A stretch of DNA of 33,265 nucleotides from positions 1 to 33,265 of the forward strand of contig JAIETA010000064.1 in assembly GCA_019745575.1 (NCBI GenBank), read 5' to 3'. The translations under genes and the position numbers were made by a program. This stretch comes from Reyranella sp. (lineage in GTDB: Bacteria; Pseudomonadota; Alphaproteobacteria; Reyranellales; Reyranellaceae). Below the pieces are notes generated by a model. The model had not been told where the DNA came from. It made no database searches and saw nothing but the letters and a program-made list of their open reading frames with translations. Positions 125-22,099 of this stretch are shown here, piece after piece. Each line of letters starts with the position of its first letter. The first letter of the stretch is position 1.

Positions 125-1057
125 TCACGCCGCCAGCGACGCCGCCGGTGTCGCCAGATGCGTCGACTCGCCAAAACCTTCCGCGTCGGGCTCGCGCACC
201 AGCTTCTGGTAGTCGGCCATCAGGGCCCGCGCCACGGGTCCGGCCTGATAGTGGCGCCCATCGATCGCGCCCACCGGCACGATCTCGGCCGCGCTGCCGC
301 ACAGGAACACTTCACTCGCATCGTCGAGTTCCTCTGGCATCACGTCGCGTTCCTCCACCGCCCAGCCGCGCTTCTTCGCCATGCCCATCACCGCCCGCCG
401 CGTGATGCCGTCGAGGAAGTTGTGCGGTATCGGCGTCACGAGCTTGCCGTCGATCACCAGGAAGATGTTGGCGCCGGTCGTCTCGGCGAGGCGGCCCTGC
501 CAGTCGAGCATCAACGCGTCGTCGAAACCCGCCTTGAGCGCGCGGTCCTTCTCGATGCCGCAGATGACGTAGAGGCCCGCCACTTTGGCGTGGCCCGGCG
601 CCGTCTCGGGTGACGGCCGGCGATACTTCGCCAGGGTGACGTTAATGCCGGCGTCGCGTGCCTGCACGGAAAGCCGGCCCTCCTGCGCCCAGGGCGCGAT
701 GGCGAGATGCACCGTCGTGCCGATGGCCGACACGCCCAGCACCTCCGAGCCACGCCAGGCGATCGGGCGGATGTAACCGCTGGTGAGTCTGTTCGCCTTC
801 ACAACGGTACGCGTCGCCTCGTCGATCTCCTCGCGCGACCACGGCAGATCGTAGTCGAGCAGCCGCGCGGAGCGGATCAGGCGGGCGCTGTGCGCAGCGA
901 GGCGAAAGACGCGGCCATCGTAGATGCGCTCGCCCTCGAAGACGGCCGAGCCGTAGTGCAGGGCATGGGTCAGGACATGCGTGCGGACGTCGCGCCACGG
1001 CGCCAGCTTGCCGTCGATCCAGATGAAACCGTCGCGATCATCCATCGTTGTGGACAT
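125..1057 (-). CDS. ilvE: Branched-chain amino acid aminotransferase (fold-type IV PLP enzyme)
   Basis: A 310-residue class IV aminotransferase expected to interconvert branched-chain amino acids and their 2-oxo acids in the cytoplasm with PLP. Visible family features are YGSAVFEGERIY near residue 35-46, a Schiff-base lysine in HAKVAGLY (Lys158), the PLP-binding glutamate in RLAETTGANIF (Glu192) and the phosphate-loop motif DGITRRAV. Lys158 and Glu192 match the Lys/Glu spacing of E. coli IlvE. I chose the ATG at 1057 because AGGAGA lies 7 bases upstream; a TTG at 1075 overlaps that ribosome site and is unlikely. The gene has its own promoter region with a TTGACA box and a palindrome. A second branched-chain aminotransferase lies at 4613, so the two may differ in direction or substrate. 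The family is clear; the exact substrate is inferred. Confidence 0.9.
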   Translation of the reverse strand: MSTTMDDRDGFIWIDGKLAPWRDVRTHVLTHALHYGSAVFEGERIYDGRVFRLAAHSARLIRSARLLDYDLPWSREEIDEATRTVVKANRLTSGYIRPIAWRGSEVLGVSAIGTTVHLAIAPWAQEGRLSVQARDAGINVTLAKYRRPSPETAPGHAKVAGLYVICGIEKDRALKAGFDDALMLDWQGRLAETTGANIFLVIDGKLVTPIPHNFLDGITRRAVMGMAKKRGWAVEERDVMPEELDDASEVFLCGSAAEIVPVGAIDGRHYQAGPVARALMADYQKLVREPDAEGFGESTHLATPAASLAA

Positions 1058-1123
1058 TGCGGAATCTCCTTGCAAAAGATTCTAAATAGACCTTTTGAAA
1101 CGTCTTTTTAGCAATCTTACATG

Positions 1124-4549: not shown

Positions 4550-4583
4550 CCGGACCGCAGGCTTGCACCATGGCCGTCTGTGC

Positions 4584-4589
4584 TACAGT
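4584..4589 (+). promoter_or_regulatory. Possible -10 element for the second ilvE gene
   Basis: TACAGT, within TGCTACAGTC, lies 29 bases before the ATG at 4613. A TTGCAC is present at 4563-4568, but the spacing of 15 is short. It would allow expression separate from the kinase gene that ends at 4549. Confidence 0.25.
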
Positions 4590-4612
4590 CGGGAAAACAT
4601 CCGAGAGAACTC

Positions 4613-5707
4613 ATGTCAAAGACCCCGTCGCTCGAATTCGTCCTCCATCCGCATCCGGCACCACTCGCCGCCGCCAAGCGCGCGGAGCTCCTGAAGAATC
4701 CGGGTTTCGGTCGGGTCTTCACCGACCACATGGTGACCATCCGCTATAGCGAGGCACAAGGCTGGCACGATGCGCGGGTCGAGCCGCGCGCGCCGATCCC
4801 GATGGACCCGGCGGCCGCCGTCCTGCACTACGCCCAGGAGATCTTCGAAGGGTTGAAGGCCTACCGCACGGCAACCGGCGGCGCGACCCTGTTCCGGCCG
4901 GAAGAGAACGCGCGGCGCTTCCAGCAATCGGCCGAACGGCTGGCCATGCCGGTGCTGCCGGAGCGGGTGTTTCTCGAGGCGGTCGACCGGCTGGTCAGCA
5001 TCGACCGCGAGTGGATTCCGGACGGCGACGGCAGCCTCTACCTGCGCCCGTTCATGTTCGCCAATGAGACGTTCCTGGGCGTAAAGCCGTCGTCGGACTA
5101 TCTCTTCATCGTCATCGCCTCGTCGGTCGGCGCCTACTTCAAGACCAGCGCGCCGGCGGTGTCGGTCTGGGTGTCGCCGGACTACACGCGCGCCGCGCCG
5201 GGCGGTACGGGGGCCGCCAAGTGCGGCGGCAACTATGCCGCCAGCCTGCTCGCCCAGGCCGAGGCGACACGGCACGGCTGCGACCAGGTCGTGTTTCTCG
5301 ACGCCGTCGAACGGCGCTGGATCGAGGAACTTGGCGGCATGAACATCTTCTTCGTGTTCGACGACGGCTCGATGGTGACCCCGCCGCTCGGCGGCACGAT
5401 CCTGCCCGGCATCACGCGGTCCTCGCTGATCACTCTGGCCAAGGACAAGGGCATTGCCGTACGCGAGGAGCGCTATTCCATCCAGCAATGGAAGGCCGAC
5501 GCCGCCAGCGGCCGCCTGCGCGAAGCCTTCGCCTGCGGCACCGCCGCGGTCGTCACGCCGATCGGCACCGTGCGCAGCCAGGATGGCGAGTTCACCATCG
5601 GCAACGGCGGCTCGGGCGCCCGGACCGAGGACCTGAAGTCAGCCCTGGTCGGCATCCAGCGCGGCAAGGCCGCCGATCCGCACGGCTGGATCCACAAGGT
5701 CTTTTAG
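4613..5707 (+). CDS. ilvE: Branched-chain amino acid aminotransferase, type II
   Basis: A 364-residue class IV aminotransferase of the longer BCAT type II branch (similar to mitochondrial and actinobacterial BCATs), catalysing the last step of Val/Leu/Ile synthesis or the first of their breakdown. Seen in the sequence: LHYAQEIFEGLKAYR (residues 71-85), RFQQSAERLAMP substrate-side loop, LYLRPFMF, GGTGAAKCGGNYAASL with the Schiff-base Lys203, the PLP-binding Glu239 in RWIEELGGMNIFFV, and the phosphate loop LPGITRSSL. Start: ATG at 4613 with GAGAA just upstream; in-frame sequence before it lacks a ribosome site. It follows the two-component operon in the same direction after 63 bases, so it may be partly co-transcribed. 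It is only distantly like the aminotransferase at 125-1057. Confidence 0.95.
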   Translation: MSKTPSLEFVLHPHPAPLAAAKRAELLKNPGFGRVFTDHMVTIRYSEAQGWHDARVEPRAPIPMDPAAAVLHYAQEIFEGLKAYRTATGGATLFRPEENARRFQQSAERLAMPVLPERVFLEAVDRLVSIDREWIPDGDGSLYLRPFMFANETFLGVKPSSDYLFIVIASSVGAYFKTSAPAVSVWVSPDYTRAAPGGTGAAKCGGNYAASLLAQAEATRHGCDQVVFLDAVERRWIEELGGMNIFFVFDDGSMVTPPLGGTILPGITRSSLITLAKDKGIAVREERYSIQQWKADAASGRLREAFACGTAAVVTPIGTVRSQDGEFTIGNGGSGARTEDLKSALVGIQRGKAADPHGWIHKVF

Positions 5708-9820: not shown

Positions 9821-11833
9821 ATGCGCGTTGGCGTGGAAGTCGGCGGTACCTTCACCGACCTGGTGGCGGTCGAAGGCGGCAAGGTCGTCGTCACCAAGGT
9901 GCCGAGCACGCCTAAAAGCCCCGACGTCGGCGCCTTCGCGGCGCTCACCGCCTCGGGCATCGACCTCGCGCGCATAAGCGATCTCGGGCACGGCTCGACC
10001 GTCGCCACCAACGCCGTGCTGGAGCGCAAGGGCGCAGCCGTGGCGTTCATTGCCACGCAGGGATTCCGCGACCTGCTGTTCATGCAGCGCCACGACCGGC
10101 GCAACATCTACGACCTCTTCTACGCCAAGCCGGCGCCGCCGGTGCGTCGCAAGGATTGTTTCGAGGCGACGGAGCGCCTGCGCGCCGACGGCTCGGTCGA
10201 GATGCCGCTCGACGAGGCCAAGGCGCGGACCGAACTGATTCCGGTTCTCAAGTCAGGCGGCTACCGCGCCGTCGCGATCTGCCTGCTCAATGCCTATGCC
10301 AATCCCGCGCACGAAAAGCGCCTGGCCGCGCTGATCGCCGAAGCGTTGCCCGGCGTGCTGGTGACTTGTAGCCACCAGGTGGCGCGCGAGTTCCGCGAGT
10401 TCGAGCGCGCCTCGACGACGTTGCTCTCGGCCTACGTCCAGCCCGTCATCGACGGCTATCTGCATCGCTTCGAGAGCAAGCTTGCGGACGCAGGCTTCAC
10501 CGGCCGCTTCACGGTGATGCAGTCCAACGGCGGCCGCCTGCCCGCCGAGGCGATGCGCCAAAGCGCCATCACCGCACTCTACTCCGGTCCTGCCGCCGGC
10601 GTGGTCGGCGCCACGCGGCAGGCCGCCCGCTCGGGTTATAGGGATCTCATCACCTTCGACATGGGCGGCACCTCGACCGACGTCTGCCTGGTGCAGGACG
10701 GACGGCCCTCACTCGCTTCGGAAAGCGAGATCGACGGGTTGCCGATCCGCACGCCGGTCCTCGACATCGTCTCGGTCGGCGCCGGCGGCGGCTCGATCGC
10801 CTGGGTCGACGACGGCGGCATGCTGCGGGTCGGCCCGCAGAGTGCCGGCGCCGATCCCGGTCCCGCCTGCTACGGCAAGGGCGGCACCGAACCCGCCACG
10901 ACCGACGCCCACATCGTGATCGGCACCATCCGGCCCGGCGCCTTCTTGGGCGGCCGGATGACCCTCGACGGCGACGCCGCGCGGCGCGCCTTCGAGCCCA
11001 TCGCCGCCCGCTTCGGCCTCGGCATCGAACAGGCCGCGTCCTCGGCGCTGCAGCTTGCCGACGCCAACATCGTGCGCGCCATCCAGCTCGTCTCGACCGA
11101 GCGCGGTCGCGATCCGCGCGACTATGCGCTGGTGCCGTTCGGCGGCGCCGGGCCGCTCCACGCCGCGCGCATTGCCGAGGAGCTCGGTATCTCGACCATC
11201 GTCGTGCCGCCCAATGCCGGCGTGATTTCTGCCTATGGGCTGGTGGCCTCCGACTACACCAAGTTCGATGCCGTCACGCGCAAGATGAAGCTCGACGATG
11301 CCGCCGCCGCCGAAGCCGGCAAGACCTTCGCCGAGATGCGGGCCCGGCTCGCCGCGCAGTTCGCCGACATGAAGCTGCCGGGCGACCTCGACTACACCCA
11401 CACGCTGGAGATGCGCTTCGTCGGCCAGGCCTTCGAGGTCGGCGTGGAAGTCCCCGCCGATCGACTGGGCTCGCTCGATGGCGCCTATCTCGCCGGCCTG
11501 TTCGCCGACGCCCACCATCGCACATTCATGCACGGCGCCACGCTCGATCGGGCGGTCGAGATCGTGACGCTGCGCGTGGGCGCCACGCTCCCGATCGGCA
11601 CCATTCCCCAGCTCGACCGCGAGAAGCTCGCCGCCCGTGCGCCGGAGCAGGCAAAAATCTTCCATGGCGAGGCCTGGCTCGACTGCGCCCGCCACACGGC
11701 GGAGGCGCTGGCATCCGGCCAGAAGATCGTCGGCCCCGCCGTCATCGAAGGCTACACCGCCACCACCTGGGTGCCGCCCGGCTGGACAGCCGAGCTCGAC
11801 CCGGCCGACAATCTGATCCTTCGGAGGTCTTGA
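9821..11833 (+). CDS. hyuA: Hydantoinase A / 5-oxoprolinase family subunit
   Basis: A 670-residue protein of the HyuA (N-methylhydantoinase A / 5-oxoprolinase N-terminal half) family, the ATP-using subunit that activates a cyclic amide such as 5-oxoproline or hydantoin. The first ATP-binding motif VEVGGTFTDLVAVE is at residues 5-18. Then come HGSTVATNAVLERKGAAVAFI and GFRDLLFMQRHDRRNIYDLFY, typical of the Hydant_A_N region, and the second actin-like phosphate motif TFDMGGTSTDVCL in the hydantoinase A domain, followed by SVGAGGGSIAWVD. The C-terminal third matches the family's C-terminal domain. Its stop codon overlaps the hyuB start (TGATG), so the two subunits are co-translated. Related pairs also include acetone and acetophenone carboxylases, so the substrate is open. 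Confidence 0.9.
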   Translation: MRVGVEVGGTFTDLVAVEGGKVVVTKVPSTPKSPDVGAFAALTASGIDLARISDLGHGSTVATNAVLERKGAAVAFIATQGFRDLLFMQRHDRRNIYDLFYAKPAPPVRRKDCFEATERLRADGSVEMPLDEAKARTELIPVLKSGGYRAVAICLLNAYANPAHEKRLAALIAEALPGVLVTCSHQVAREFREFERASTTLLSAYVQPVIDGYLHRFESKLADAGFTGRFTVMQSNGGRLPAEAMRQSAITALYSGPAAGVVGATRQAARSGYRDLITFDMGGTSTDVCLVQDGRPSLASESEIDGLPIRTPVLDIVSVGAGGGSIAWVDDGGMLRVGPQSAGADPGPACYGKGGTEPATTDAHIVIGTIRPGAFLGGRMTLDGDAARRAFEPIAARFGLGIEQAASSALQLADANIVRAIQLVSTERGRDPRDYALVPFGGAGPLHAARIAEELGISTIVVPPNAGVISAYGLVASDYTKFDAVTRKMKLDDAAAAEAGKTFAEMRARLAAQFADMKLPGDLDYTHTLEMRFVGQAFEVGVEVPADRLGSLDGAYLAGLFADAHHRTFMHGATLDRAVEIVTLRVGATLPIGTIPQLDREKLAARAPEQAKIFHGEAWLDCARHTAEALASGQKIVGPAVIEGYTATTWVPPGWTAELDPADNLILRRS

Positions 11834-13515
11834 TGAGCCAGTTGGGTCCGATCGACTATGCCGTGATCAGTCAGGCGCTGATCGCCTCGGCGCGCGAGAT
11901 GGGCGTAAAACTCATTCGCTCCGCGTACTCGACCATCCTGCGCGAGGCCCGCGACGGCTCGGCCGGTCTCATGGACCGCTTCGGCAACACGGTGGCCCAG
12001 GCCGAACTCATTCCCATGCAGCTCGGCCCGATCGGCGAGACGCTGCGCGCTTGTCTCAGGCGTCACCCTGTCGAGACGCTCAAAGAGGGTGACTTCCTGA
12101 TCAACAACGACCCGTTCGAGGGCGGCCAGCACATCCCCGACGTGTTCATTTTTACGCCGATCTTCGTCGCCGGCCGCGCAGGTAAATCTCAACTGGTGGG
12201 CTTCGGCGCCTCGGTGGCGCACCATCTCGATCTCGGCGGCGGCGCGCCCGGCCTCAACATCCATGCGTCGGACGTCTACCAGGAAGGCATTCGCTTCCCG
12301 CCCAGCAAGTACGATTTTCAGCGCGACTGGAACGGCGGCTCGTTCGAGCGCCTCGTCACCGCCAACGTGCGTGTGCCCGACCTCACCATCGGCGATTTCA
12401 ATGCCCAGTTCGCCGCCAATGCCATCGGCGTATTGCGCGTAAAACAGCTCTGCGACCGCTACGGCGCCGACAAGGTCGAAGCGGCGATGAAGGAGATGCA
12501 GGATTACTCCGAGCGCCGGGTGCGCGCCGCCATCGCTCAGGCGCCCAAGGGCATCTTTTATGGCGAGGACGCGGTCGACGACGACGGCCTCACCGACGAA
12601 CCTTTGGTGGTGAAGGCCAAGGTCACCATCTCCGACGACTCGGTCGAGATCGATTTCGAAGGCACCTGCGGCCAGGTGAAGCGCAACCTCAACTGCCCCT
12701 ACTCCAGCACGCTGTCCGCGGCGCTCAGCTGCGTAAAATCGGTGCTGACCAGTCCGGACATTCCCTACAACGAGGGCATGGCGCGGCCGATCGTCATAAA
12801 GGTGCCCTACGGCTCGCTGCTCAACCCGCGGCCGCCGGCGCCGGTGCGGGCGCGCATGATCCCGGCCTACCGCGTGTTCAACGCCGTCATGAAGGCGATG
12901 GCCCAGGCGTTGCCCGACAGGGTCATCGCCACAGGCTTCGACTGCACGACCGCCTTCTGCCTCTCCAACCTCGGCGAGAAGGGCTATAGCGTCTATCTCG
13001 AAATCTTCGGCGGCGGCTATGGCGCCTCACGCGGCGCCGACGGCTGCGACGCCGTCGACTCGCCGCTCAGCAACTGTTCCAACGCCCCGGTCGAGTCGCT
13101 CGACATCGACTACGACTTCTTCCGCATCGTCGGCTACGAACTCGCCCCCGACTCCTTCGGCCTGGGCGCCCGGCGCGGTGGCGCGGGTTTTAGCCGGCGC
13201 TGCGAGATCCTGAAGAACGACGTGCAGCTCGCCGTCTATTCCGACCGCTTCCGGCTCGCGCCCGAGGGTCTGCTGGGCGGCGAGCCCGGTCAGCGCGGCT
13301 ACTGCCGCGTCCACCGCGCCAACGGCACCGTCGAAGAGCTCAAAAGCAAGGCCGCGATCGACCTCGCCAAGGGCGACATCGTGGAAATGTTCGTGGGCGG
13401 CGGCGCCGGCTTCGGCCGCGTCGAGGAACGGCCCGATGCCATGATCGACCGCGACCTCGCCGACGGCCTGCTCACGCGCGATCCGAGGCCGGCGCGGAAG
13501 TTGGCGGCGGAGTAG
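11833..13515 (+). CDS. hyuB: Hydantoinase B / 5-oxoprolinase family subunit
   Basis: A 560-residue HyuB-family protein, the partner of the preceding subunit. Family landmarks are LIRSAYSTILREARDGSAGLMDRFGNTVAQAELIPMQLG near the start, FLINNDPFEGGQHIPDVFIF, HHLDLGGGAPG, IDFEGTCGQVKRNLNCPYS, and near the C-terminus the Gly-rich GGGYGASRGADGCD and YELAPDSFGLGARRGGAG. Start: ATG at 11833 overlapping the hyuA stop, with CGGAGG upstream; a TTG three bases earlier is not needed. Together the two would hydrolyse a cyclic amide at the expense of ATP. The stop codon directly abuts the stop codon of the convergent aminotransferase-like gene, with no base between. Confidence 0.92.
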   Translation: MSQLGPIDYAVISQALIASAREMGVKLIRSAYSTILREARDGSAGLMDRFGNTVAQAELIPMQLGPIGETLRACLRRHPVETLKEGDFLINNDPFEGGQHIPDVFIFTPIFVAGRAGKSQLVGFGASVAHHLDLGGGAPGLNIHASDVYQEGIRFPPSKYDFQRDWNGGSFERLVTANVRVPDLTIGDFNAQFAANAIGVLRVKQLCDRYGADKVEAAMKEMQDYSERRVRAAIAQAPKGIFYGEDAVDDDGLTDEPLVVKAKVTISDDSVEIDFEGTCGQVKRNLNCPYSSTLSAALSCVKSVLTSPDIPYNEGMARPIVIKVPYGSLLNPRPPAPVRARMIPAYRVFNAVMKAMAQALPDRVIATGFDCTTAFCLSNLGEKGYSVYLEIFGGGYGASRGADGCDAVDSPLSNCSNAPVESLDIDYDFFRIVGYELAPDSFGLGARRGGAGFSRRCEILKNDVQLAVYSDRFRLAPEGLLGGEPGQRGYCRVHRANGTVEELKSKAAIDLAKGDIVEMFVGGGAGFGRVEERPDAMIDRDLADGLLTRDPRPARKLAAE

Positions 13516-14430
13516 CTAGAGCGCGCCGACCGACTTCAGATAGAGGTTGCTGGCTTCCATGGTCACCTTGCCGGCCTTGCCATCGGCGATCGGCCGGCCG
13601 TCGACCTTCGTTACCGGCGTGACGCCGCCCAGCGTGCCGGTCACGAATGCCTCGTCGGCGGAATAGACCTGCGCCAGGGTGAAGTCGCACTCCTTCGCGA
13701 CGTTTCCAGCCGCGCGCCAGGCGTCGAGCACGTTGTGCTGAGTGATCCCCTTGAAGCTGTAGAGGCTCGTCGACGTCCAGAGCTCGCGACCGCGCACGAT
13801 GAAGAAGTTGGTCGAGTTGCAGGACGCCACGAAGCCGCGCGGATCGAGCATCAGCGCCTCGTCAGCTCCGGCGTTGATGGCCTGGATCAGCGCCTGGATC
13901 AGATTCAGCCGCGAGTGCGAGTTGAGACGCAGGTCGAACTGGTCGGGGCCAGTGGTGCGGAAGGTCGATGTGAAGAGCGCATAGCCCTTGGCCTTGGCCT
14001 CCGGGATCGGCGTCTTGTACTCGGCGACACAGACGATGGTCGCCTTGCCGATCACGAAACGTGGGTCCTGATTTGGTGTCTTCTTGAGGCCGCGCGTGAT
14101 CATCAGACGGACATGTGCGCCATCGGTCATGCCGTTCCTGGCGAGCGTGTCCGTCACGACCTTGACGATGCCAGCGCGGTCGAGACCGATATCGAGAGCG
14201 ATCGCCCGCGCACCCTCGAACAGCCGGTCCATGTGGGCGTCGAGGCTGATCAGCCGGCCCTTGACCAGCCGCAACCCCTCCCAGACACCGTCGCCCAGCA
14301 CAAAGCCTGAATCGAACACCGACACGCGCGCCTCGTTCCTCGGCACGAACTCCCCGTTCACGTAGACCAGCACCTTGTCGTTGCGTGCATCGGCCAGGTA
14401 GGCCTGTGCGCTTGCCTGCTCCGTTGTCAT
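13516..14430 (-). CDS. Fold-type IV aminotransferase-like protein lacking canonical PLP residues
   Basis: A 304-residue protein with the overall class IV aminotransferase pattern: VYVNGEFVPRNEARVSVFDSGFVLGDGVWEGLRL (residues 22-55), MDRLFEGARAI, AGADEALMLDPRGF, LYSFKGIT and DEAFVTGTLGGVTPV. The region that should hold the Schiff-base lysine reads RLNSHSRLNL: the expected Lys aligns with Asn170 and there is no lysine from residue 149 to 226. The glutamate that binds the PLP ring nitrogen aligns with Ser203 (FVASCNSTNFF). From memory, related proteins carry SHSKLN and CNSTxFF, so this may be a distinct subgroup rather than a decayed gene. It is the last gene of the gntR/transporter operon (11 bases after the ATPase gene). 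Usually annotated as branched-chain or D-amino-acid aminotransferase; activity is uncertain. Confidence 0.85.
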   Translation of the reverse strand: MTTEQASAQAYLADARNDKVLVYVNGEFVPRNEARVSVFDSGFVLGDGVWEGLRLVKGRLISLDAHMDRLFEGARAIALDIGLDRAGIVKVVTDTLARNGMTDGAHVRLMITRGLKKTPNQDPRFVIGKATIVCVAEYKTPIPEAKAKGYALFTSTFRTTGPDQFDLRLNSHSRLNLIQALIQAINAGADEALMLDPRGFVASCNSTNFFIVRGRELWTSTSLYSFKGITQHNVLDAWRAAGNVAKECDFTLAQVYSADEAFVTGTLGGVTPVTKVDGRPIADGKAGKVTMEASNLYLKSVGAL

Positions 14431-14441
14431 CTTCGCTCTTT

Positions 14442-15182
14442 CTACAGACTGAATTCCTTGTGCCGCGCCAGGAAGGCGCGGGTGCGTTCTTTCTTCGGAT
14501 CCTTCAGCACCTCGTCAGGTGTGCCCTGCTCATGGATCGCGCCATCAGCCAGAAAGATCACGCGCGTCGCGACGTGATAGGCAAAGCCCAGCTCGTGGGT
14601 GACCAGCAGCATCGTGCAGCCCTCTTCGGCCAGCGCCCGGATGACGCCCAGCACCTCGCCGACAAGCTCGGGATCGAGCGCCGAGGTCGGCTCGTCGAAC
14701 AGCAGAAGTTCCGGATCCATCGCGAGGGCGCGAGCGATCGCCACCCTCTGCTTCTGGCCACCGGACAGGTGCGCAGGATAGTGCGCCGCTTTGTCGGAAA
14801 GGCCGACGCGCGCCAGCTCACGTTCGGCCCGCGCCGCCGCCTCGGCTTTGGGCATTCGTCGCACGGTGCGCAGTCCCTCCATGACATTGCCGAGCGCCGT
14901 CATGTGCGGGAAGAGGTTGAACTGCTGAAAGACCATGCCGATACGCTGGCGGACGGCGGTCAGCTCGCGCTCGCGGCGGCCGACGACCTTGCCGTCGAGG
15001 GTGACGGTGCCGGCATCGGGCATCTCCATGAAGTTGATGCAGCGCAGCAGCGTGCTCTTCCCTGAGCCGGAGGCCCCGAGGATGGCGATGCGCTCGCCCT
15101 TGGCGACATCGAGGTCGATTCCTGACAACACCTCATGACTGCCGAATCGCTTGGCGAGGCCCTGGACGTGCAGGATCGTCAT
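14442..15182 (-). CDS. Polar amino-acid ABC transporter ATP-binding protein (GlnQ/HisP type)
   Basis: A 246-residue single nucleotide-binding domain. Walker A GASGSGKST lies near residue 35, the Q-loop in GMVFQQFNLFPHMT, the signature LSGGQKQRVAIARAL, Walker B LLLFDEPTSALD, and the switch His in LVTHELGF. The LFPHMTALGNV pattern is typical of the polar amino-acid (PAAT) group. It energises import by the two permeases encoded directly upstream. Start: ATG at 15182, overlapping the permease stop codon (ATGA); a longer in-frame reading continues into the permease gene and is not real. Confidence 0.94.
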   Translation of the reverse strand: MTILHVQGLAKRFGSHEVLSGIDLDVAKGERIAILGASGSGKSTLLRCINFMEMPDAGTVTLDGKVVGRRERELTAVRQRIGMVFQQFNLFPHMTALGNVMEGLRTVRRMPKAEAAARAERELARVGLSDKAAHYPAHLSGGQKQRVAIARALAMDPELLLFDEPTSALDPELVGEVLGVIRALAEEGCTMLLVTHELGFAYHVATRVIFLADGAIHEQGTPDEVLKDPKKERTRAFLARHKEFSL

Positions 15183-15838
15183 TCGTCCCTCGCCAGCCGT
15201 CGCTCGAGAAAATAGGTCAGCTGCACCATCGGCCATAGGCAGGCGAAGAATATCACCGCGACGGCGGTATAGGCCTCGATGGGATTGAAGTTCAGCGACG
15301 CAATAAGCTTGGCCTGCTGCAGTAGCTCGACGTAGGCCACGGCCGAGGCGAGCGTCGACATCTTGAAGATCTCGATCGCCCGATTGGTCAGCGCCGGCGT
15401 CATGCGCTTCAAGGCCTGCGGCAGGATGATGCGCCGCATCGCCTGCAGGAAGCTCATGCCCAGAGCACGGGCACCGTCCCATTGAGCGCGCTCGATAGAC
15501 TGAATGCCTGCACGATAAATCTCGGCCGAGAAGGCGGCCGAATTGAGCGAGATGCCGAGCGACGCTGCGGCAAGCGGGCTGATCGAGAACGGCATCAGGA
15601 TCGGAAGCGCAAAATAGAACCAGAGTATCTGGACCAGCACCGGCGTGTTGCGGAAGAACTCGACGAACGCCGTCGCCGGCCAGTAGAACCAGCGCCGACG
15701 CGAGTAGCGGCCGAGGCCGACAACCAGGCCGAGGCCAAGGCCCGCCACCAGGCAGATCGCGAAAATCCGCAGCGTGCCCATCGCACCGACAAGCAGCGCA
15801 TCGCTGTTGGCGAGTACCGAGGCGAAGTCCCACTGCAT
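15179..15838 (-). CDS. Polar amino-acid ABC transporter permease (second)
   Basis: A 219-residue inner-membrane permease of the HisM/GlnP type with about five transmembrane segments. It has the N-terminal PAAT-permease region GAMGTLRIFAICLVAGLGLGLVVGL, then VEFFRNTPVLVQILWFYFALP, and the EAA loop that contacts the ATPase, DGARALGMSFLQAMRRIILPQALKRMTPALTN. The ATG at 15838 is separated by one base from the stop of the upstream permease gene, and its own stop overlaps the ATPase start. Clearly homologous to the upstream permease, so the pair likely forms a heterodimeric channel. Confidence 0.93.
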   Translation of the reverse strand: MQWDFASVLANSDALLVGAMGTLRIFAICLVAGLGLGLVVGLGRYSRRRWFYWPATAFVEFFRNTPVLVQILWFYFALPILMPFSISPLAAASLGISLNSAAFSAEIYRAGIQSIERAQWDGARALGMSFLQAMRRIILPQALKRMTPALTNRAIEIFKMSTLASAVAYVELLQQAKLIASLNFNPIEAYTAVAVIFFACLWPMVQLTYFLERRLARDE

Positions 15839-15839
15839 G

Positions 15840-16517
15840 TCAGTGCACCGTCGTTTCGCCGCTGACGGCGAAGCGGCGTTCCAGCCGGCGGGCGGCCAGG
15901 CTGAAGGCGGTGATGACGACGAAGTAGATCAGAGCGGCAACCGTGAAAGTCTCGAGCGGCCGGAATGTCTTCTGGGCGATCTCATTGGCGGCGAACAGGA
16001 GGTCGGCATAGGCAATCGTCGCAACCAGGGTCGTCGTCTTCATGAGTTCGATGGCGCGTTCCATGAAGGCCGGGATCATGCGCTTCACGGCCTGCGGCAG
16101 GATGATACGCCGCATCGCCTGGGGCTGCGTCATGCCGATGGCGCGCGCGGCCTCCCACTGGCCGCGCTCGATCGAGACGATGCCGCCCCGGAACACTTCC
16201 GCGAAGAAGGCCGAGGACTGGATCGAGAAGGTCACAGCCGCCGCCAGGAATGGCGTCATCTCCACCCCGATGATCAGCGGCAGGGCGAAGAAGAACCAGA
16301 AGAGCTGGACCAGCGGCGGCGTCGTGCGGAACACTTCGATCACGAAACCCGCCGGCCACGCGGCGAGCCGACGACGCGACAGTCGCATCAAGGCCAACGC
16401 CAGGCCCAGCACCAGTCCGCAGGCGAGCGCCGTGCCGGTGACCTTCAGCGTATTCACGAGGCCCTGCGCCAGCAATCCTGCGTTGGCAAGGACCGGCGTG
16501 AAGTCCCAGACGTACAC
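15840..16517 (-). CDS. Polar amino-acid ABC transporter permease (first)
   Basis: A 225-residue inner-membrane permease, paralogous to the next gene. Landmarks: LLAQGLVNTLKVTGTALACGLVLGLALALMRL, VIEVFRTTPPLVQLFWFFFALPLIIG, and the EAA loop EAARAIGMTQPQAMRRIILPQAVKRMIPAFMERAIEL. Start: I prefer GTG at 16517 (residues MYVWDFTPVLAN), 14 bases after the binding-protein stop; this matches the start MQWDFASVLANS of the paralogue. The longer reading from 16610 would overlap the binding-protein gene by about 80 bases and adds unrelated residues. The ribosome site is weak, so translation may be coupled to the upstream gene. Confidence 0.92.
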   Translation of the reverse strand: MYVWDFTPVLANAGLLAQGLVNTLKVTGTALACGLVLGLALALMRLSRRRLAAWPAGFVIEVFRTTPPLVQLFWFFFALPLIIGVEMTPFLAAAVTFSIQSSAFFAEVFRGGIVSIERGQWEAARAIGMTQPQAMRRIILPQAVKRMIPAFMERAIELMKTTTLVATIAYADLLFAANEIAQKTFRPLETFTVAALIYFVVITAFSLAARRLERRFAVSGETTVH

Positions 16518-16531
16518 GGGCGGCTGACGCC

Positions 16532-17365
16532 CTACTTGATCATTTCCTTCATGACCGGCGGCGCCAGCTTCGGATCGAGGCCGAAGTCGGTCAGCGCCGC
16601 TTCGTACCATTTCTGCGTCTGGCCGCTCTTGTAGTAGCCGGCGAGCTGCTTATCGACCCACTCCGTGAAGGCCGTGTCGCCCTTGCGCAACGCAGCGCTC
16701 GAAGGCTGCGACTCGGCGGGCAGCGGCACCACGATCTTGCCCTTGCCGAGGCGCTGACGCGCAGCGAGCAGCGGCGGGTGGAAGAGGCAGACGGCGTCGA
16801 CACGGCCCGCCTGGAAGGCGGCGATCGCCTCGGCGTTGCCCGGAAAGCGCTGGATGTCGGCCTTGGGCGTGTGCTGGGTTGTCCAGCGATCCATGGTCGA
16901 GGCCTGTGGGACGGCGATGCGCACGCCGGCCTTGTTGAGGTCTTCCCAGGTCGTCACTGGCAGGTCGTCGCGCACCAGCACGGCAAGCGAGTACCAAAGG
17001 AGCGGCGCGTCGGGGAAGTTCGCGGCTTGCTTGCGCTCGGCGGTGGCGTCGAGCATGAACATGATGTCGATCTTGTCGCCCTGCAGCGCCGCGATCGCAT
17101 TGCCCCAGGTGACCTCGACCGGCTCGAACTTGACGCCGAGTGTCTGGGCCATCGCCTTGCCCATCGAGACGCCAAGTCCCGACGCCCACGCGCCGGTCTT
17201 GGGATCCTTCGAGTACCAGGGCGGTGCCTGCGTGACACCGACGCGCAGCACGCCGCGCTTCTTCACCTCGTCGAGGGTGGCCTGGGCACGTGCGGCAAAC
17301 GGCATGGCGAGCGTGCCGCCTGCGGCGGCGAGCACGGTGATCAAGGAACGACGATTGATGGTCAT
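16532..17365 (-). CDS. Polar amino-acid ABC transporter substrate-binding protein
   Basis: A 277-residue periplasmic binding protein of SBP family 3. A signal peptide occupies residues 1-28 (MTINRRSLITVLAAAGG, ending FAARAQA) with a twin-arginine-like RR. The mature protein begins TLDEVKKRGVLRVGVTQAPPWYSKDPKTGAWASGLGVSMGKAMAQTLG, the standard lobe I start, and includes the hinge and lobe II region DLNKAGVRIAVPQASTMDRWT. The ligand is likely an amino acid or derivative; specificity cannot be read by eye. GGGGGAAG upstream serves as ribosome site. It lies 24 bases after gntR and before its two permeases. Confidence 0.92.
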   Translation of the reverse strand: MTINRRSLITVLAAAGGTLAMPFAARAQATLDEVKKRGVLRVGVTQAPPWYSKDPKTGAWASGLGVSMGKAMAQTLGVKFEPVEVTWGNAIAALQGDKIDIMFMLDATAERKQAANFPDAPLLWYSLAVLVRDDLPVTTWEDLNKAGVRIAVPQASTMDRWTTQHTPKADIQRFPGNAEAIAAFQAGRVDAVCLFHPPLLAARQRLGKGKIVVPLPAESQPSSAALRKGDTAFTEWVDKQLAGYYKSGQTQKWYEAALTDFGLDPKLAPPVMKEMIK

Positions 17366-17389: not shown

Positions 17390-18070
17390 TTAACGCGCAG
17401 GCAACGAGCGCAGGAAGCGCTCGGTGGTCTCGACACCGCGACGCATGTGGTCGCCGATCTCGCGCCGCATGGCATCGAGGTCGTCACCGAAAGCGGCGGC
17501 GATGTAGCTGTCGTGGCTGTCGCGCCGCGGACCACGGCGTCCGTGTGCGCGGTGATGCGCAGCCCAGTAGAGCTGCAGCCGCCCGCGCAGGCCGTTCCAG
17601 GCGCGTTGCAGCAGCCGGTGGCCGCTGGCCTCGTAGACGAGGCCGTGGAACTCGAGCTCGGTCGAGATGCTGGCGCGGTCGTCGCCGGCGTCGATGGTAA
17701 CCAGCAGTGCATCGTTGCGTCGCCGCAGTTCGGCTCGGAATCGATCGTCGCGATGCGGCCATATCTGCTCGAAGGCAAAAATCTCGAGCGCGGTACGCAG
17801 CGAGTAGATCTCCTGGACGTCCTCGACCGACAGCGACGCCACATGGGTGCCCGTGTAGGGCACCGTCACAACGAGCCCTTCCTCGATGAGCTGCCGCAGC
17901 GCCTCCCGGAGCGGGCCGCGGCTCACCTCGAAACGGTTTGACAGGGCCGTCTCGACCAGCGGCGCCCCCGGCGGAATGTCACCGGACAGAATCGCCGTCC
18001 TGAGCCGCTCGGCCACATGGGCGCGCAACGTGCTCCTGGGCACTGGATCGAGAAGGTTGGCAACTGACAT
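17390..18070 (-). CDS. GntR-family regulator (FadR/FCD subfamily)
   Basis: A 226-residue regulator. The winged helix-turn-helix at about residues 12-75 shows LRAHVAERLRTAILSGDIPPGAPLVETALSNRFEVSRGPLREALRQLIEEGLVV, followed by the wing PYTGTHVASLS. The C-terminal FCD domain (about 85-215) is all-helical and typically binds a carboxylate through a metal held by Asp/His residues; candidates are His141 within ELEFHGLVYEASGH and the later His-containing helices. It is the first gene of the operon that encodes an amino-acid transporter and an aminotransferase-like protein, so it most likely represses this operon and itself, released by the transported compound or a product. A perfect palindrome suited to this family lies four bases before its ATG. 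Confidence 0.9.
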   Translation of the reverse strand: MSVANLLDPVPRSTLRAHVAERLRTAILSGDIPPGAPLVETALSNRFEVSRGPLREALRQLIEEGLVVTVPYTGTHVASLSVEDVQEIYSLRTALEIFAFEQIWPHRDDRFRAELRRRNDALLVTIDAGDDRASISTELEFHGLVYEASGHRLLQRAWNGLRGRLQLYWAAHHRAHGRRGPRRDSHDSYIAAAFGDDLDAMRREIGDHMRRGVETTERFLRSLPAR

Positions 18071-18135: not shown

Positions 18136-18582
18136 CTAGTAGGACTTGTAGCCCAGGAACTTGCCCGACATGGCGATCTTCACCCGGTCGCCCTTCTGGT
18201 CGGGCTGGCGCTCCATGGTCATGTCGAAGTCGATGGCGCTCATGATGCCGTCGCCGAATTCCTCCTGGATCAGCTCTTTCCAGGTCGTGCCGTAGACCTG
18301 GACCAGCTCGTAGAAGCGGTAGATCAGCGGGTCGGTCGGCGGGATCTGGGGCAGCGAGCCGCGGTACGGCACCTCCTGCAGCAGCAGCACCTCTTCCTTG
18401 CCGAGGCCGAACAGCTTGCCGGCCTTGGTCGCCTGCTCCTTGGTCATCTTCATCTGGCCCATGCAGGCCGCGGTGACGATGATCTTCGAGGCGCCGCCGA
18501 TCTTCTTGGCGATCTCTTCCCAGCTCAGTTCCTTCATCCGCTTGGCGGTCAGGATCTTCTCGGTCACTTCAGCGCGCTTCAT
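18136..18582 (-). CDS. cynS: Cyanase (cyanate hydratase)
   Basis: A 148-residue enzyme that breaks down cyanate with bicarbonate to ammonia and CO2 (through carbamate). The N-terminal helical DNA-binding-like domain (residues 1-75) precedes the catalytic domain. The catalytic triad of E. coli cyanase (Arg96, Glu99, Ser122) is present as Arg89 and Glu92 in [12 protein letters not shown] and Ser115 in [10 protein letters not shown], all shifted by exactly seven. The C-terminus [16 protein letters not shown] is typical. The enzyme works as a decamer. Start: ATG at 18582, overlapping the transporter ATPase stop (ATGA), with GGGAGAAG upstream. It is the last gene of the transporter operon; no carbonic anhydrase (cynT) or LysR-type cynR is beside it. 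Confidence 0.97.
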
Positions 18583-19496
18583 TGTCTTCTCCCGGTTGTC
18601 AAAGTTACGACTTCGGCTGGCGGATTGACCGCGGCCAATTTCACGGACATGAGGCCCGGCTTCACCAGCTTCAGCCGGCGCGGGTCGTAGCCGCCGCCGG
18701 CGATCTCCTGGTCGAACGCCCTCGATCGGTTGACCAGGAACTCCACCAGGTGGTTGCGGATGGCGTAGTACTGCGGATGCTTGTGCAGGTCGTTCCGGTG
18801 CCGCTCGTTCCGGGGCATGGTGTTGACCACGATCTCGGCGATCTTGGCGCCGGGGCCATTGGTCATCAGCACGATCTTGTCGGCCAGCAGGATGGCCTCG
18901 TCGACATCGTGGGTGATCATGAACACCGTCTGGTTGGTATCGGCGCAGATGCGCAAGACCTCGTCCTGCAGCATGCCGCGGGTCAGCGCATCGAGGGCGC
19001 TGAACGGCTCGTCCATCAGCAGCATCTTGGGCTGGATCGAGAGCGCCCGGGCGATGCCGACGCGCTGCTTCATGCCGCCCGAGAGCTGCGACGGCTTCTT
19101 GCCCTCGGCACCCTTCAGCCCGACCAGTTCGATGAAGCGGCGGGCGTGATCCTGCACCCGGGTGCGGTCCCACTTGGGCCAGCGCGAGGAGACGGCGAAG
19201 GCGATGTTGCCCATCACCGAGAGCCAGGGCAGCAGCGCATGACCCTGGAAGATCACGGCGCGGTCGAGGCTGGGGCCGTCGATCTCGAGATTGTCGACGA
19301 TGACGGCGCCGGCGCTCGGCCGGTCGAGGCCGGCCAGGACGTTCAGGATGGTGGTCTTGCCGCAGCCGGAGTGGCCGATCAGGCAGAGGAATTCGCCGCG
19401 CTCGACGCCGAACCAGATGTCCTCGAACACGGCGGGCTGGGCGGAGTCGCCGAAGCGGCGCGCCAGGCCCTCGACGCTGATCAACGGGCGTTCCAT
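18579..19496 (-). CDS. Cyanate/nitrate-type ABC transporter ATP-binding protein (NrtD/CynD type)
   Basis: A 305-residue ATPase subunit. Walker A is GHSGCGKTT near residue 42, the Q-loop [12 protein letters not shown] (typical of nitrate/sulfonate/taurine importers), the signature [15 protein letters not shown], Walker [12 protein letters not shown] and the switch His in MITHDVDEA. The extra C-terminal stretch of about 70 residues ([28 protein letters not shown]) is characteristic of the NrtD-like group. Its ATG is at 19496, four bases after the permease stop, and its stop overlaps the cynS start. With cynS coupled to it, cyanate is the most likely substrate of this system; nitrate or nitrite cannot be excluded. 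Confidence 0.93.
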
Positions 19497-19500
19497 GACG

Positions 19501-20355
19501 CTACTCCGGATAGGTGACGAGCCGGGCGAGCCAGGCCAGGCCCTGGTCGAGGGCCAGCCCGACCAGGCCGATCAGCAGGATCGCCGTCACGATGTTGGCG
19601 ATGGAGAGGTTGTTCCACTCGTTCCACACGAAGTAGCCGATGCCGGTGCCGCCCACGAGCATCTCCGCCGCCACGATGACCAGCCAGGCGATGCCGATGG
19701 AAATGCGCATGCCGGTCATGATGGTGGGCGCCGCCGCCGGCAGGATGACCCGGAAGGCGGTGCGGAACGGGCCGACCTCGAGGGTGCGTGCCACGTTCAG
19801 CCATTCGCGCCGGACGCTCGCCACGCCGAAGGCGGTGTTGATCAGCATCGGCCATACCGAGCAGATGAAGATCACGAAGATCGAGGAGATGGCGCTGTCC
19901 TTGATGGTGTAGAGCGCGAGCGGCATCCAGGCGAGCGGCGACACCGGTTTCAGGATCTGGATGAACGGATCGAGCGCGCGGTAGATCAGCGGCGACATGC
20001 CGATCAGGAAGCCGAGCGGCACCGCGACCAGGGCGGCCAGGGCGAAGCCCAGCAGCACGCGGCCCAGCGAATAGGCGAGCTGGATGCCGATGCCCTTGTC
20101 GTTGCTGCCGCGGATATAGAACGGGTCGACGAGATGCTTCCAGATGGTGGTGCCGATGTCGGCCGGCGTCGGCATCGCCGACTTGGTGCCGCTGGCCGCG
20201 GCGGCGCCCAGCAGCTTGGCGTATTCCGGGTCCAGCGCCGGGCCGGTGCCCGCCGTCGGCGTCGTGGCGATCTGCCAGAACGCCACGATGCCGACGAAGA
20301 TCAGCAGCGACAGCAGCCCGGCCCTGAGGCCGAGGGAATTGCGGAACGCCGCCAC
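19501..20355 (-). CDS. Cyanate/nitrate-type ABC transporter permease (NrtB/CynB type)
   Basis: A 284-residue inner-membrane permease with a first transmembrane segment at about residues 12-27 ([17 protein letters not shown]), a periplasmic insertion (about 28-85) and then roughly five more segments ([23 protein letters not shown] onward). The ATPase-contacting loop is [41 protein letters not shown], as in nitrate, bicarbonate and cyanate importers. Start: GTG at 20355 (residues [10 protein letters not shown]), four bases after the binding-protein stop, with GGAGC upstream. Confidence 0.92.
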
Positions 20356-20359
20356 GCTC

Positions 20360-21742
20360 TCAGCTCCGGCGGATGGCGAAGCTGCTGACGTACTCGGCGG
20401 GCTTGCTGGCGTCGAACGGCTTGCCCATGACGACGATCGTCTTCTTCGTCGGATCGGGCGGCGTCAGCCCCATCTCCTTCATCATCGCGGCGGTGTCGGT
20501 GGCGAGGAAAACCTCCGACGCGACCTTGGCGTAGTCTATGTCGGCCTTGAGCTGCCCCCAGCGCTTCATCTGCGTCAGGATCCAGATCGCGAACTGGTTC
20601 CACGGGAACGGGTCGAAGTCGATGCGGTTGGGGTCGCGCTTCACGCCGCCCAGGCCATCGGCATAGGTGCCGGTGAGGACCTGCTCCAGCACCGTTTCGG
20701 GCTGGTTGAGGTAGTTCTGCGGCGCGATCGCCTTGGCGATCTCCTTGCGATTGTCGGCCTTGGAGGCGTAGGCCGTGGCCTCGATGATCGCCTTCAGGAG
20801 CGCCCGGTAGGTGTTGGGGTTCTGGGCCGCGAATTCCTTGCTGACCGTGAAAGCGCAACAGGGATGGCCGTCCCACAGCTCCTTGGTCAGGAGATGGATG
20901 AAGCCGATACCGTCGTAGACGGCGCGCTGGTTGAACGGATCGGGCCCGAGATAGCCGTCGATGTTGTCGGCCCTGAGGTTGGCCACCATCTCGGGCGGCG
21001 GCACGGAGCGGATGGAAATGTCCTGGTCGGGATCGAGCCCGTGCTCGGCCACGTAGTAGCGCAGCAGGTAGTTGTGCATCGAGTAGTCGAACGGCACGGC
21101 AAAGCGGAAGCCCTTCCAGTCCTTCGGGTTGCGCTTGTCCTTGTGCTTGTTGGCGAGCGTGATCGCCTGGCCATTGATGTTCTCGATCGCCGGCATGGTC
21201 CACGGCACCGGGTTCGAACCGACGCCGAGCGAGATGGCGAGCGGCATCGGCGAGAGCATGTGGGCGGCGTCGTATTCCTTGGCCAGCGACTTGTCGCGGA
21301 TCACCGCCCAGCCCGCCGTCTTGACGACTTCGACGTTGAGGCCGTGTTTGGAATAGAAGCCCATCGGATGAGCCATGATGATGGGCGTGGCGCAGGTGAT
21401 CGGGATGAACCCGACCTTGAGGTCCTTCTTCTCGGGCGTGCCAGCCCCTGGCCCCCCTTGGGCGAAGGCCTCGCGCGCCGCCGCCAGCGGCAGCACCGAG
21501 GAGATGGCGGCCATCGCGGTCGCCGCCCCGACGGTGCGCAGGAACAGACGCCGCTGGGCATCGACCGGGAAGACCGCCCGCAGGACGGCGGCGTCGACCA
21601 CCCGGTTCCAGCGCTGCTCCTCGCCCGCCGGCGCGGCCTCGGCGGTCAGGCGGGCATGGTCGGCCGCCGCGTGGTTGCCGCCGCAGCCGCATCGCCCGCC
21701 CAGCAAAGCCTTGGGGTCGAAGGGATCCTTGAACATCGACAT
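20360..21742 (-). CDS. NrtA/CmpA-type substrate-binding protein of the cyanate operon
   Basis: A 460-residue NrtA/CmpA-family binding protein, first gene of the cyanate operon. Its N-terminus is unusual: a long cytosolic-looking leader of about 60 residues with a CxCxxxH motif (GGRCGCGGNHA; Cys18, Cys20, His24) comes before a twin-arginine signal (Arg64-Arg65 in AQRRLFLRTVGAATAMA, cleavage region AREAFAQ). The mature part starts KDLKVGFIPITCATPIIMAHPMGFYSKHGLNVEV and contains PPPEMVANLRADNIDGYLGPDPFNQRA and ELWDGHPCCAFTVSKEF, typical of the nitrate/bicarbonate family. Start: ATG at 21742 preceded by GAGGAGG; residues upstream of it fall in the promoter. Exact ligand (cyanate, nitrate or other) is inferred from cynS. 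Confidence 0.92.
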   Translation of the reverse strand: MSMFKDPFDPKALLGGRCGCGGNHAAADHARLTAEAAPAGEEQRWNRVVDAAVLRAVFPVDAQRRLFLRTVGAATAMAAISSVLPLAAAREAFAQGGPGAGTPEKKDLKVGFIPITCATPIIMAHPMGFYSKHGLNVEVVKTAGWAVIRDKSLAKEYDAAHMLSPMPLAISLGVGSNPVPWTMPAIENINGQAITLANKHKDKRNPKDWKGFRFAVPFDYSMHNYLLRYYVAEHGLDPDQDISIRSVPPPEMVANLRADNIDGYLGPDPFNQRAVYDGIGFIHLLTKELWDGHPCCAFTVSKEFAAQNPNTYRALLKAIIEATAYASKADNRKEIAKAIAPQNYLNQPETVLEQVLTGTYADGLGGVKRDPNRIDFDPFPWNQFAIWILTQMKRWGQLKADIDYAKVASEVFLATDTAAMMKEMGLTPPDPTKKTIVVMGKPFDASKPAEYVSSFAIRRS

Positions 21743-21777
21743 GCCGCCTCCTCGCGCGAGCGCCTGAGGAGCGAGGA

Positions 21778-21793
21778 CGCAAGCAACGTGCCA
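21778..21793 (-). promoter_or_regulatory. Sigma-54 (RpoN) promoter of the cyanate transporter/cyanase operon
   Basis: The minus strand reads TGGCACGTTGCTTGCG (21793 to 21778), matching the sigma-54 consensus TGGCACG-N4-TTGCW at all but the last, weak position. The -24 GG and -12 GC are correctly spaced. Transcription would start near 21767, 25 bases before the ATG at 21742 and just upstream of its GAGGAGG ribosome site. Confidence 0.8.
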
Positions 21794-21845
21794 AGGCCGC
21801 CGGATATGCGGAATTCCGAGGCAATCCGTTGAGTGAGGCTCGTTT

Positions 21846-21862
21846 TGCCTAAAAATCCGGCA
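21846..21862 (-). promoter_or_regulatory. Candidate NtrC-type enhancer site
   Basis: TGCCTAAAAATCCGGCA keeps the TGC-N11-GCA dyad and A-rich centre of NtrC sites such as TGCACTAAAATGGTGCA. It lies about 80-95 bases upstream of the predicted sigma-54 start, a usual enhancer distance. Arms are imperfect relative to the consensus, so this is tentative. Confidence 0.4.
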
Positions 21863-22099
21863 CACAGTCGCGATTCGATCTGCGGAATTCTGTGACTCGA
21901 ATCTTAACGCTGGGGATTAAATTTATGGAATCGCTGACTCTTTCCCCGATTTCCGCTCGATTTCTTATTGCGTGCAGAGTCACCCTTATGGCAGGCTACC
22001 AATTGTGGGTTGTTGGGTGCCCACCACGATATGTCGGCCACCCGCCCCTAGAACGGGTCCTCAGGAGCCGCAGGGCGGAAATGGTTGGGGAGTGGGTCG
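21863..22099. other. Divergent regulatory gap between the cyanate operon and the YbjN gene
   Basis: Together with the sigma-54 promoter and candidate enhancer this completes the 357-base gap from 21743 to 22099. It is markedly AT-richer than its surroundings (for example around 21895-21985) and has no supported gene. A small TGGGTGCCCA palindrome lies near 22015. I cannot place a confident promoter for the YbjN gene. Confidence 0.45.

Follow-up and report, generated by a model that had tools for sequence, protein, structure and literature searches.

The window analysed here, a 33,265-nucleotide stretch of DNA from Reyranella sp., encodes a 304-residue aminotransferase-like protein that belongs to a lysine-less group of class IV homologues, and this group is a real, selected protein family and an old branch among the aminotransferases of class IV (fold type IV). 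As judged from sequence, the loss of the catalytic lysine is a family-wide trait, neither private to the Reyranella genome nor an accident, and the accompanying residue pattern is that of a rebuilt active site rather than a damaged one. A lysine anchors the cofactor in almost all B6 enzymes, and a branch that keeps the fold and the operon, with both cofactor residues swapped in a fixed way, offers a natural test of the roles of Lys and Glu. Such genes are annotated as plain 'aminotransferase class IV' in genome records, a label that is probably misleading.

The gene (Table 1) begins with ATG, preceded by an SD-like AAAGAG, and contains no internal stops. Its product scores 140.1 bits against the Pfam model Aminotran_4 (PF01063; curated cut-off 28.5), which places it within the class IV fold, and passes none of the NCBIfam equivalog or subfamily models for branched-chain aminotransferase (BCAT), D-amino acid transaminase or aminodeoxychorismate lyase; its best NCBIfam score, obtained with PRK08320, is 234.5 bits against a cut-off of 363, and other models score lower. 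An earlier note on this DNA had proposed that Asn170 occupies the Schiff-base Lys position and Ser203 that of the PLP glutamate, and that residues 149-226 are free of lysine. All of this held: the nearest lysines are residues 148 and 227, and both substitutions were borne out by alignment (see below). Two ordinary BCATs of different types (IlvE I-like, IlvE II) are encoded in the same window, at 125-1075 (-) and 4580-5707 (+). Both pass NCBIfam cut-offs as branched-chain aminotransferases and, as the note had also stated, keep Lys and Glu, spaced by 34 and 36 residues (in the second, the Glu counted is the one directly before LGGMN). Judged as a functional class IV aminotransferase, the 304-residue protein lacks the Schiff-base Lys and the Glu to pyridine N1 and has the phosphate-cup residues (Arg69, Gly-Ile-Thr230, Thr-Gly-Thr266). 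Judged as a member of the lysine-less family of 7Z79, it has Asn at the Schiff position, Ser/Thr at the Glu position and a place within the clade.

Table 1. Features of the aminotransferase-like gene and its neighbourhood (positions in the window).
Feature	Positions	Strand	Remarks
Lysine-less class IV aminotransferase-like protein, 304 aa	13516..14430	-	PF01063 match; nearest solved structure 7Z79
Codon 170, AAC (Asn), at the Schiff-base Lys position	13921..13923	-	Alignment
Codon 174, CGG (Arg), 4 residues past the Schiff position	13909..13911	-	Alignment; Arg/Lys across relatives
Codon 203, TCC (Ser), at the PLP-N1 Glu position	13822..13824	-	Alignment
Codon 116, Lys, in the RGxKxxPxQxP loop	14083..14085	-	Alignment; near-invariant
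ABC transporter ATPase, 11 bp upstream of the aminotransferase-like gene	14442..15242	-	Conserved neighbour in relatives
Amino-acid-type ABC permease	15179..15838	-	
Amino-acid-type ABC permease; listed start lies 79 bp inside the SBP gene that precedes it	15840..16610	-	Position conserved in relatives
SBP_bac_3 substrate-binding protein (SBP)	16532..17365	-	Profile match
GntR/FCD regulator, operon head	17390..18070	-	
HyuA-HyuB, hydantoinase/oxoprolinase-type, convergent neighbour	9821..13515	+	Kept in most Reyranella-group loci

Relatives came from a scan of genome contigs (80 loci), from two whole-genome sweeps (299 and 385 genomes) and from a plasmid collection; after removal of duplicates, 146 distinct relatives (39-100% identity) were compared with an outgroup of 29 other class IV homologues, including the genome's own class IV paralogues. 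Asn170 is present in all 146 relatives, down to the remotest member (L169, 39% identity), a uniformity well past what chance would give, and faces Lys in all 29 outgroup proteins; a search among the 146 for a member with Lys at the Schiff position found none. Position 203, which is Glu throughout the outgroup (29/29), is Ser in 101 relatives and Thr in 45. At position 174, 102 relatives have Arg and 44 have Lys, and the residue there covaries with the one at 203 (Arg+Ser 101, Lys+Thr 44, Arg+Thr 1). Ser173 and Asn205 are each found in 146/146. Lys116 is found in 144/146, and both members in which it is replaced by Arg carry Lys174, so that each relative has at least one of these two lysines. 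These counts bear on the SHSKLN relatives mentioned in the earlier note, in which Arg174 would stand in place of the only candidate Lys: such relatives exist (the 44 with Lys174) but they too carry Asn170, and Arg174 is confirmed but Lys116 is a candidate as well.

In a maximum-likelihood tree, one branch (support 100/99) has all the lysine-less rows to one side of it; the outgroup branches are long, and for the lysine-less group to be a clade the root must lie on the other side. The median dN/dS against 20 orthologues is 0.077, indicating purifying selection, which together with the conservation excludes decay, in agreement with the note's view of an intact gene. A decaying paralogue or an assembly artefact, for which nothing speaks beyond the missing residues themselves, is thus refuted by this ratio, by the 146 intact relatives and by the conserved operon. 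Additionally, copies 77-79% identical occur, without the transporter operon, on Chloroflexi-labelled contigs (L045-L047, one labelled Thermoflexus), and these may reflect mis-binning or recent transfer.

Alignment of the Lys, Glu and phosphate positions showed the first two replaced in every relative and the phosphate cup kept, with Arg69 and Thr230 in 146/146, Thr264 in 145/146 and Thr266 in 143/146; the phosphate-cup role of Arg69 and of the threonines of GIT and TGT is assumed here from known class IV structures. The ring-stacking position 226 is bulky in nearly all relatives (Phe, Met or Leu) and Leu in all outgroups, and the carboxylate-side Arg108 is kept in 147/147 rows. Around this scaffold lies a set of clade-specific invariant or near-invariant residues (Trp50, His106, Lys116, Gln121, Glu137, Asn170, Asn205 and Ser220), an invariance not shared by ordinary relatives. 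Trp50 and His106 align with substrate-side aromatics of D-amino acid and branched-chain aminotransferases, and position 174 with the Tyr that lies close to PLP O3' in several of the branched-chain enzymes. An AF2 model of the protein (pLDDT 91.9) matches 7Z79 with a Z of 40.7 and an rmsd of 1.5 A over 298 residues (66% identity), as compared with Z values of 32-36 for ordinary class IV enzymes, the branched-chain enzymes lying near 35.

The regulated transporter operon described in the earlier note is real and recurs in relatives. In the window it runs GntR-SBP-permease-permease-ATPase-aminotransferase-like, the last being the terminal gene; the overlap of the SBP gene by the listed start of the permease that follows it suggests that the true permease start is internal. 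Across 83 long Arg174-type loci, the ATPase is found in 77, a permease in 75 and the SBP in 71, and a few Lys174 members (L157, L178) also have transporter genes. Variable companions of the Arg174-type operons include a ClC-type channel, pyrroline-5-carboxylate reductase, ornithine cyclodeaminase, gamma-glutamyltransferase and MmgE/PrpD. The presence of reductase or cyclodeaminase genes within or beside some of these operons fits amine or imine chemistry and lends mild support to a B6 enzyme. On the other side of the Reyranella gene, the HyuA-HyuB pair abuts it directly; its nearest NCBIfam model is caprolactamase, with a score far below the cut-off. Just upstream of the GntR gene lie a cyanase gene and a nitrate-type ABC transporter (ATPase, permease and NMT1-like binding protein; 18136-21865, -).

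The SBP gives a hint as to what is imported. Compared with 74 homologues, it keeps the carboxylate Arg111 (TxxR) and has Phe195-His196-Pro197 where amino-acid binders have Asp; we take the TxxR Arg to bind the carboxylate and the Asp, in amino-acid binders, to bind the alpha-ammonium. With the Arg retained and Phe-His-Pro in place of the Asp, the imported compound may be a carboxylate lacking an ordinary free alpha-amino group. Within the SBP family, a His-Pro motif beside this ammonium-binding position is invariant.

Other subgroups show a second genomic context. A Sulfotransfer_5 (PF19798) gene adjoins the lysine-less gene in 13 of 25 long Lys174 loci and in 4/4 of a second Arg174 branch; a search of the Reyranella genome for this domain gave no match, and the control gave no match anywhere either. 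In many Alphaproteobacteria (L105-L111, L117-L132 and similar loci) the two genes are direct neighbours, and the members of such pairs sometimes overlap or abut within a few bases. Plants have proteins in which a sulfotransferase-like domain is fused to a class IV domain.

Since Asn170 replaces Lys, a conventional internal aldimine is impossible, and an ordinary ping-pong transaminase cycle via a Lys170 aldimine is ruled out. The explanation that we favour, tentatively, is that the branch would hold PLP or PMP non-covalently and act on an imported carboxylate by non-standard chemistry. The retained phosphate cup and scaffold would bind PLP or, more probably, PMP without a covalent link, and Ser/Thr203 would provide a neutral hydrogen bond to the pyridine nitrogen (N1), a type of contact known from fold type II enzymes. 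Arg/Lys174, His106 or Lys116 might take over the acid-base and carboxylate work, and the substrate would be an amine- or imine-type compound with a carboxylate, imported by the operon's own ABC transporter. Against this explanation stands the fact that Lys and Glu, the residues most tied to B6 catalysis, are both gone; moreover, a different phosphorylated ligand might occupy the phosphate cup, and the sulfotransferase-like neighbour of other subgroups is hard to fit into this scheme. The main rival, which we consider possible but on the unlikely side, takes the scaffold to be no longer B6-using, i.e., ligand-binding, regulatory or otherwise repurposed, with another compound in the old phosphate cup. 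In its favour are the absence of both B6-defining residues from all 146 members and the lack of any reversion at Asn170 or Ser/Thr203, which looks like selection for a different role; against it are the persistence of the phosphate-cup and bulky ring-stacking residues and the imine-reductase-type neighbours in some operons, which suggest metabolism.

Alternatively, the enzyme could be an ordinary if slow transaminase, with Asn170 and free amines or substrate-assisted steps standing in for Lys. The K145N and K145Q mutants of bacterial D-amino acid aminotransferase, single point mutants that are laboratory counterparts of the Lys loss, reportedly perform partial reactions, and the kept Arg108 would suit such an activity; however, the Glu is missing as well and the substrate side is remodelled too (Trp50, His106), which a merely slowed enzyme would not need, so that this account appears improbable. 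Slightly more improbable still is a relocated lysine restoring an ordinary internal aldimine, either Lys174 in the SHSKLN members or Lys116, possibly that of the partner subunit, in the Reyranella protein. The frequencies of these two lysines given above favour it, as does the loop of D-amino acid aminotransferase aligned with the Lys116 loop, residues of which reach the neighbouring active site. Nonetheless, position 174 is Arg in most relatives, including the closest kin of the Reyranella protein, Lys116 comes after an RG motif and is distant from the Schiff position along the chain, and the Glu is lost as well; furthermore, the depositors of 7Z79 mutated its Asn174 to Lys, which, going by the title of the entry, suggests that they saw no functional lysine there. 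To return to the non-covalent B6 enzyme, its furthest-reaching form would be a natural class IV-fold B6 family without internal aldimine and without pyridine Glu, in which Asn/Ser(Thr) and a new His-Lys-Arg set (or a lysine from elsewhere) serve an undescribed reaction coupled to carboxylate uptake and also, among the sister branches, to a protein resembling sulfotransferases; this form is a speculative one, and we rate it as doubtful.

Part of this is already known, since a 66%-identical member and its Lys-bearing mutant are in the PDB; new here are how widespread and how strict the trait is, the division into Arg/Ser and Lys/Thr subgroups, the residues specific to the clade and the existence of two genomic contexts. 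A literature search (7Z79, 9J32, lysine-less class IV proteins, BCAT-like/sulfotransferase pairs) returned, among the papers it covered, none on the family or its function, and subscription papers may exist; a study of an Aspergillus BCAT describes Lys conservation as absolute (PMC8262921). The nearest solved structure, 7Z79, in the PDB since 2022 as 'aminotransferase-like protein from Variovorax paradoxus', resembles the Reyranella protein in its fold and in having identical residues (Asn, Arg and Ser) at the equivalents of positions 170, 174 and 203; 9J32, in the PDB since 2025, is its N174K mutant at the position equivalent to Asn170. These entries point to 170 as the Schiff-base position independently of the outgroup alignment. 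The family member of V. paradoxus NBRC 15149 (L076) adjoins the same kinds of transporter genes as the Reyranella gene but differs in gene order (ATPase-AT-SBP-permeases-GntR) and in not having HyuAB alongside. The closest ordinary class IV enzymes are the archaeal BCATs of Archaeoglobus fulgidus (5MQZ) and Geoglobus acetivorans (5CM0/5E25), with Z values of 35-36 at about 35% identity, which, unlike the Reyranella protein, keep the Schiff-base Lys and the Glu. The E177S mutant of D-amino acid aminotransferase (1G2W) is a laboratory counterpart of the natural Glu-to-Ser change, and its crystallisation indicates that this change is compatible with the fold, although it is a point mutant whose active site is not otherwise remodelled. 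Finally, the PMP-dependent dehydratases ColD and E1, aminotransferase homologues that lack the Lys and use non-covalent PMP, provide a precedent for the chemistry proposed here, but they belong to another fold type (fold type I), have His replacing Lys and act on sugar-nucleotide substrates.
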